Source of the DNA: a virus
DNA: 32,139 nt
IMG/VR virus record: IMGVR_UViG_3300022187_000122
Span: 1-32,139 of that record
Strand: one strand, 5' to 3'
Shown piece by piece: positions 24,190 through 25,138 of the stretch (the stretch's first letter is position 1; each line of letters starts with the position of its first letter). The translations under genes and the position numbers were made by a program. The notes beneath the pieces were generated by a model, which was given only the letters and a program-made list of their open reading frames with translations, was not told the DNA's origin and did not search any database.

Positions 24190-24254
24190 CTTGATTTACT
24201 TTCAGCCATGCGTTTTGCCCATTCTTCGATGATGCTGACTATAGATAATATCAT
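24186..24254 (-). CDS. 22-residue mini-protein between cytosine methylase and regulator
   Basis: An open frame of 22 codons. Its ATG (24254-24252) overlaps the methylase stop (ATGA), its own TGA (24188-24186) overlaps the start of the regulator, and GGAGG at 24266-24262 lies 7 bases upstream, the best ribosome site in this stretch. The peptide has a hydrophobic start (MILSIVSII) and ends EEWAKRMAESKSR, nearly the same as the end of the 78-residue protein before the methylase (EWAKRMAASKLRC). It is either a working leader peptide or the surviving tail of a duplicated gene. Confidence 0.5.
   Translation of the reverse strand: MILSIVSIIEEWAKRMAESKSR
24187..24227. repeat. Degenerate direct repeat, left of the cytosine methylase gene
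   Basis: A 41-base segment that matches 25136-25176 at 32 of 41 positions by eye, in the same orientation. Each copy encodes an EWAKRMA-x-SK-x-R C-terminus and contains the start codon of the following gene. The two copies flank the whole methylase gene. Confidence 0.65.
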
Positions 24255-25138
24255 GTTTCTGCCTCCAATATCGCGTTGCCAATTATCTCTGGTATTTGCG
24301 GAACAACCGCGTTGCCTAGTCCTTTAAGTCTGTCCACCCGCTTGGGAACCCCATGAGCCACTCGACCCACGTCGGGTTCAGTGAGCCACCGCGCTCCATG
24401 TTCTGAGTTTGCTCTGCTTCTCTTATAATCCTCTTGTCCCAGGCCAAGATTGATCCGATTTGATTGTTTCGTTCCCCCTTCTGCGCCTTTTCTACTTTTT
24501 CTTTCTGGTGTTTGAATGGAGTGTCCTTGCTTATTGACGCATCCGGCGTCGGCCATAAACTCCTCGCAACCATTGTCTCTAAATTGGGAAACTTGTCGTT
24601 TACTCTGTTCTGAATATTCTCCGCCGCCATCGCACTGCAACTCCGAGCGGTGGGCCAAAATCCACACCCTGTCGCGTCTGTGCGAGGCATTGACGGCGCA
24701 AGCTGGAACAACAACCGGGAACCCGGTGTAGCCTTCTGCTTCCAAGTCAGATAGCACTTCGTCGAGGCCCATGCTGACGTGTCCAGCAACGTTCTCAAAC
24801 AATCCCCAACGGGGCCGGACGGTAGCCATGAGCCTTTTAACTTCTGGCCAGAGGTAACGGTCATCTTCCGCGCCTCGTCGCTCCCCGGCATGACTAAATG
24901 GCTGGCACGGGTATCCCCCGCAGATGAGGTCAATTCTTCCAAGTCCATCTGCTTCCAATCGCTCATGTGTTAATTCCTTCACATCCTCATAAATTGGCAC
25001 ATCAGGCCAATGCTTTGCTAAAATGCGACGTGGGTATTCTTCAATCTCGCAAAACGCAACGGTTTTAAATCCACCTGTACGCTCTAATCCAAGGCTAAAC
25101 CCACCAATGCCGCTAAACAAATCTAATACTTTTAGCAT
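24251..25138 (-). CDS. dcm: DNA C5-cytosine methyltransferase
   Basis: A 295-residue methylase with all key motifs: DLFSGIGG (6-13, SAM binding), GGYPCQPFS (74-82, catalytic Cys78), ENV (115-117), RRDR near 154-157, and GLGNAVVPQ (273-281). The variable target-recognition zone lies at about 165-255. It methylates position 5 of cytosine in an unknown target. No cognate endonuclease is adjacent, so it is an orphan, probably for anti-restriction. It overlaps the 78-residue gene upstream by 7 bases. Most of its length also carries a second long open frame (24316-24966), and degenerate repeats flank it. Confidence 0.93.
   Translation of the reverse strand: MLKVLDLFSGIGGFSLGLERTGGFKTVAFCEIEEYPRRILAKHWPDVPIYEDVKELTHERLEADGLGRIDLICGGYPCQPFSHAGERRGAEDDRYLWPEVKRLMATVRPRWGLFENVAGHVSMGLDEVLSDLEAEGYTGFPVVVPACAVNASHRRDRVWILAHRSELQCDGGGEYSEQSKRQVSQFRDNGCEEFMADAGCVNKQGHSIQTPERKSRKGAEGGTKQSNRINLGLGQEDYKRSRANSEHGARWLTEPDVGRVAHGVPKRVDRLKGLGNAVVPQIPEIIGNAILEAET
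24316..24966 (-). CDS. Candidate overprinted gene nested inside the cytosine methylase
   Basis: A 216-codon frame shifted by one base, wholly inside the methylase gene and on the same strand. Its ATG has AAGGA 8 bases upstream. The protein shows a pattern I recognise from annotated phage and bacterial proteins: LTSSAGDTRASHLVMPGSDE, KCYLTWKQKATPGSRLLFQL, PSMPRTDATGCGFWPTA, SLWPTPDAS, and an end LNPTWVEWLMGFPSGWTDL. The WPT-P-x-A motif occurs twice. Conserved methylase motifs constrain this frame too, so similar strings in databases may be shadows of other methylases. Dual coding is plausible but unproven. Confidence 0.4.
   Translation of the reverse strand: MSDWKQMDLEELTSSAGDTRASHLVMPGSDEARKMTVTSGQKLKGSWLPSGPVGDCLRTLLDTSAWASTKCYLTWKQKATPGSRLLFQLAPSMPRTDATGCGFWPTARSCSAMAAENIQNRVNDKFPNLETMVARSLWPTPDASISKDTPFKHQKEKVEKAQKGERNNQIGSILAWDKRIIREAEQTQNMERGGSLNPTWVEWLMGFPSGWTDLKD

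Follow-up and report, generated by a model that had tools for sequence, protein, structure and literature searches.

One stretch of DNA in this virus, an IMG/VR virus record of 32,139 nucleotides (IMGVR_UViG_3300022187_000122, positions 1 to 32,139, analysed at full length and called the window here), carries two proteins in overlapping frames, and we consider it highly likely that these are the two chains, alpha and beta, of one split cytosine-5 methyltransferase. The overlap itself is established: 24316-24966 is a selected gene, and both frames are under selection at the protein level. The features of the locus are as follows.

24251-25138, minus strand: alpha, catalytic chain of a cytosine-5 DNA methyltransferase, 295 aa, motifs I-VIII and X (PF00145, phrog_363, superposition on M.HhaI)
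24316-24966, minus strand: beta, putative motif IX/recognition subunit, 216 aa, in the +1 frame (phrog_1008, dual-coding tests)
24975-24979, minus strand: AAGGA, the Shine-Dalgarno-like site of beta, 8 bases upstream of its ATG at 24964-24966 (from the sequence)
24905-24907, minus strand: codon of the predicted catalytic Cys78 of alpha (motif IV, PCQ), already within the overlap (invariant P77, C78 and Q79 in alignment A3)
24382-24657, minus strand: variable zone of beta, with two WPTP-type modules (residues 104-137 and from 138; from module spacing)
24331-24381, minus strand: candidate motif IX of beta, LNPTWVEWLMGFPSGWT (profile alignment to the single-chain motif IX)
24296-24316, minus strand: motif X of alpha, GNAVVPQ, at the end of the overlap (alpha alignment; C-terminal helix)

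The description given in the original prediction, a 216-codon ATG frame lying within the methylase ORF on the same strand, shifted by +1 and preceded by AAGGA, agrees with these coordinates, and both peptides that it quoted are found, the methylase frame giving VGRVAHGVPKRVDRLKGLGN and the +1 frame LNPTWVEWLMGFPSGWTDL. Its repeated WPT motif is present in beta as two copies, FWPTA and LWPTP. At 24331-24381, most of alpha EPDVGRVAHGVPKRVDR is read from the DNA of the candidate motif IX of beta. Alpha EPDVGRVAHGVP and beta NPTWVEWLMGFP are likewise encoded by shared bases.

Relatives, mostly from metagenomic viral contigs, were drawn in two ways: via the beta ORF, and via the methylase alone, blind to beta. 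The stop and similarity tests use a blind set of 41 non-redundant methylase genes, picked without regard to the beta frame, and the null is a synonymous-codon shuffle that keeps the methylase protein and its codon usage exactly. In the window gene, the +1 frame stays open for as many as 217 codons, whereas the longest open run of the shuffles averages 84 and 0 of 300 shuffles attain 217; the +2 frame has the open-run length of its own null. Nearly all genes of the blind set have a +1 open frame of 150-390 codons, well above the shuffles and at GC contents of 0.41-0.66, while openness of the +2 frame equals the null; +1 openness falls short of significance in one short locus and in a small number of GC-rich genes. 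Stop codons in the beta frame of the 41 genes number 11 in 5841 codons within the overlap versus 98 in 2140 and 74 in 850 in the flanks. Among 104 non-redundant methylases, the beta frame has 261 stops in 54 columns upstream, 39 in 187 columns of the overlap (mostly at the natural end of beta), and 194 in 22 columns downstream.

Similarity in the beta frame exceeds the shuffles by z = 37 in the zone of motifs IV-VIII, 11 in the recognition zone, and 52 in the motif IX zone, compared with 1.8 and -1.8, i.e., no excess, in the flanks (41 blind sequences, only pairs below 55% identity). Within the overlap there is an excess for the +2 frame as well (z = 14, 4, and 16), as is expected because the shared bases are constrained, yet this frame contains many stops. 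In the motif IX zone the beta frame is better conserved than the methylase frame (2.49 vs. 1.95), and the third bases of beta are near-fixed, with a mean entropy of 0.52 bits. The codon positions of close pairs show which frame prevails: the ratio of methylase position 3 to position 1 changes is 4.85 in the N-terminal flank, 1.93, 0.57, and 0.38 across the overlap, and 2.66 after it. In the recognition zone (0.57) and the motif IX zone (0.38), change is fastest at the third codon position of beta, and beta is therefore the dominant frame in both. Furthermore, a Shine-Dalgarno site and ATG start for beta are found in 73% of the blind genes, where 9% would be expected. The claim that the frame is a genuinely overprinted partner of the methylase thus stands, on the near-absence of stops in relatives and on constraint well beyond what the methylase frame accounts for. 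In bacterial genomes, the long open-frame effect is seen in 6 of 6 split methylases, and 18 of 19 single-chain methylases lie at the open-frame null, the remaining one being at p = 0.01.

Cytosine-5 methyltransferases have two domains: the large one bears motifs I-VIII and X, the small one the variable recognition region and motif IX (PMC3404938). Alpha belongs to the C-5 cytosine DNA methyltransferases (PF00145), having PCQ, ENV, and motif X; its match to PF00145 is above the cut-off (1.8e-39) and takes in only profile positions 1-182 of 324, and it matches phrog_363 at 1.3e-81. Within the alignment of alphas, PCQ, EN, and R155/R157 are invariant and the GN residues nearly so. The AlphaFold model is confident for residues 1-165 and 281-295, including the motif X helix (281-294, pLDDT 95), and is disordered at residues 182-249 (pLDDT about 36-43 across 181-250). 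It superposes on M.HhaI with Z 23.8 and rmsd 1.9 over 187 of 327 residues. The small domain is absent from the model, and the match to single-chain enzymes is confined to motifs I-VIII and X. As modelled, then, alpha is the large catalytic domain, with the predicted AdoMet site, catalytic Cys78, ENV, the RRDR motif, and the motif X helix.

Beta matches phrog_1008 as a full-length member (E 1.5e-32, residues 6-214 on profile positions 32-281 of 329); it has no match in Pfam or NCBIfam. At its C-terminus, LNPTWVEWLMGFPSGWT aligns to motif IX (LSVREAARLQSFPDHFV in locus L254) with P 0.0011, and motif IX is the best place for this C-terminus in a 471-column single-chain profile, though the match is short, 17 columns at an hhalign probability of 20%. 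Judged by this alignment, the predicted motif IX of the enzyme is supplied by beta. Upstream of it, the variable zone holds zero to five WPTP-type modules per protein, at a median spacing of 34 aa and with ~24 residues added per module. The zone that is disordered in the alpha model is selected in the beta frame, and beta probably holds the target-recognition region, in WPTP modules of ~34 residues. The original prediction had placed the methylase's own target-recognition zone in the overlap; on the evidence, no such domain is encoded at that place by the methylase frame. On its own, beta gives a poor model (pLDDT 63, pTM 0.24), neither structure nor profile comparison finds it a match in the PDB, and direct profile comparison of alpha with beta yields no homology (P 0.086). 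Single-chain relatives bearing WPTP modules were not seen; Bacteroides phage genes considered as such were rejected, as they are also split.

The division of labor can be followed through the relatives. When PF00145 members were sampled from bacterial genomes, every full-length beta ORF accompanied an alpha whose match covers about the first 165-216 profile positions, and the single-chain enzymes that match through ~320 are without one. A motif IX pattern could be matched in the reading frame of many single-chain genes of this sample but of no split gene. In two relatives (L080 and L233), the beta frame continues from LNPxWVEWLMGFP into motif X (W-EPDI-RV--LGNAVVP), and the alpha frame is broken by several stops. 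Beta here runs in frame through motif IX into motif X and therefore reads as an ordinary methyltransferase C-terminal half.

These observations bear on whether beta might be an overprinted protein with some other job: a modulator, an anti-restriction factor, or a methylase inhibitor. A long conserved N-terminal region of beta is without an assigned role and no known fold is matched, as such a protein would allow, but the motif IX-like element of beta, the lack of a small domain in alpha, and the continuation into motif X in the two relatives make this reading improbable. Nor was beta seen apart from an overlapping methylase: a stand-alone frame, which the original prediction had proposed looking for, is not found among 257 beta ORFs. 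Of the "partner or modulator" first suggested, the partner is upheld, and the modulator gives way to a subunit that is better read as structural and motif IX-bearing.

Four loci had been considered as possible stand-alone betas. L080 and L233 were rejected because of their M.AquI-like order, L156 because of a one-base frame change, and L159 because of a frame change together with an intein. L121, L166, and L222, considered as new architectures, look by eye like one-base frame changes. The second of these is Mycobacterium phage Ochi17 (L166:1444-2203), in which two "DNA methylase" genes, gp73 and gp74, look like a single alpha gene that a one-base frame change interrupts.

For the split methyltransferase, we envisage that one mRNA with two starts would be translated into alpha and beta, the latter from its own Shine-Dalgarno site and ATG, and that the two would assemble into the active enzyme. 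Alpha would bind AdoMet and hold Cys78, beta would give motif IX and presumably recognition, and both chains would be needed for activity. Because alpha is disordered there, beta could gain and lose modules freely. By analogy with other phage methyltransferases, the enzyme probably protects phage DNA from restriction.

Programmed frameshifting would instead have ribosomes leave the alpha frame for that of beta, with one fused chain as the product. The geometry would permit motifs I-VIII to be joined to the recognition zone and motif IX of beta, but the independent Shine-Dalgarno site and start are strongly conserved, and selection on beta is strong across motifs IV-VIII, where a late shift has no need of it; we regard this as very unlikely. 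Least probable of all is a mere shadow frame, in line with the counter-view raised at the outset: no protein would be made, and openness and similarity of the +1 frame would be by-products of strong methylase motifs and codon usage. This view has in its favor a weak similarity of two single-chain genes (L252 and L253; E 3e-9 and 5e-8) to the first ~55 residues of beta and accounts for only a little of the signal, since synonymous shuffles reproduce neither openness nor similarity, single-chain methylases behave as the null, the fastest codon position belongs to the beta frame, and the beta start with its Shine-Dalgarno site is enriched eightfold.

A more general reading of the split methyltransferase, which we put forward tentatively and hold at somewhat below even chances, makes overprinting the rule for a large class of cytosine-5 methyltransferases in phages. 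Beta, on this reading, would be a modular recognition array with as many as five WPTP modules, spaced ~34 residues apart; by gaining or losing them the enzyme might alter its target sites or acquire further ones, and alpha would tolerate this as a disordered linker.

M.EcoHK31I is also an enzyme in which the small chain is read from another frame within the large gene. Of its two polypeptides, as far as they are outlined in PMC3404938 (there from Lee 1995), the large chain carries motifs I-VIII and X and the small chain motif IX, with the recognition domain predicted on the large chain. By described motif layout, our locus is like it in that alpha has motifs I-VIII and X without IX, which is assigned to the second chain. 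It differs in that selection and structure prediction here point to the small chain for recognition. M.AquI likewise consists of two polypeptides, the small one holding motifs IX-X (PMC3404938), and resembles the present pair in being split into a catalytic and a C-terminal chain; motif X, however, is on alpha here and with motif IX on the small chain in M.AquI. The pAQ5 plasmid methylase of Picosynechococcus was considered as M.AquI itself, an identity that could not be made.

The M.AquI order is that of L080 and L233 among the relatives and, by eye, of two mycobacteriophage loci, Artemis2UCLA gp90/gp89 (L250:1450-2446) and Shida gp6/gp5 (L251:1432-2383). These are adjacent overlapping pairs in which all genes are named "DNA methylase"; they look like split methyltransferases, and their second genes have LPTP modules, a motif IX-like EWMMGW, and motif X.

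The family occurs widely among phages and has an entry in PHROGs (phrog_1008); its members frequently lack an annotation or bear the wrong name. The expectation that it would be widespread and usually missed is therefore right in its first half, and in its second only in part, as phrog_1008 exists and some records annotate both frames: Paenibacillus phage Leyra (61/62), K1ind1 (ORF29 and the "Mte8-like" ORF28), and PhiXhv-5. In phage N15, only the methylase is annotated (gene 58, L294:906-1901), and a K1ind1 ORF28 query matches within it. PHROGs labels both phrog_1008 (beta) and phrog_363 (alpha) "DNA methyltransferase," and their shared two-frame DNA is not conveyed. We found no earlier report of this phage overlap in the open literature, with subscription journals, where one is possible, largely outside the search; what seems under-described, and fresh here, is how prevalent the overprinting is and that beta is modular.

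The overlap would explain why many phage "cytosine methylases" seem to be without motif IX and a recognition domain: both would lie in the overlapping gene, which annotation tools tend to suppress. The annotated gene expressed alone would be expected to give an inactive enzyme. Hundreds of divergent homologues also make this a large natural data set for a long, well supported same-strand overlap, in which one can test how two parts of one enzyme are written over each other.

Finally, some individual loci deserve mention. In L157, L158, and L159 (each at position 1457 and upstream), there is an apparent intein in alpha at the motif IV catalytic cysteine (PC/Q). The ATG that opens beta falls within the 3'-terminal part of the intein DNA, and the beta start thus seems to have moved into the intein. 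On a Paenibacillus bovis plasmid (L306:2290-3400), alpha is missing from the gene table and beta is present as a "hypothetical protein" fragment; in this locus, alpha has the motif IX shadow in one stretch and the segment before motif X in another. In E. coli ECCTRSRTH03 (L291:2363-3532), the annotation breaks a prophage methylase of this group into two partial pseudogenes, one without its C-terminus and the other without its N-terminus.
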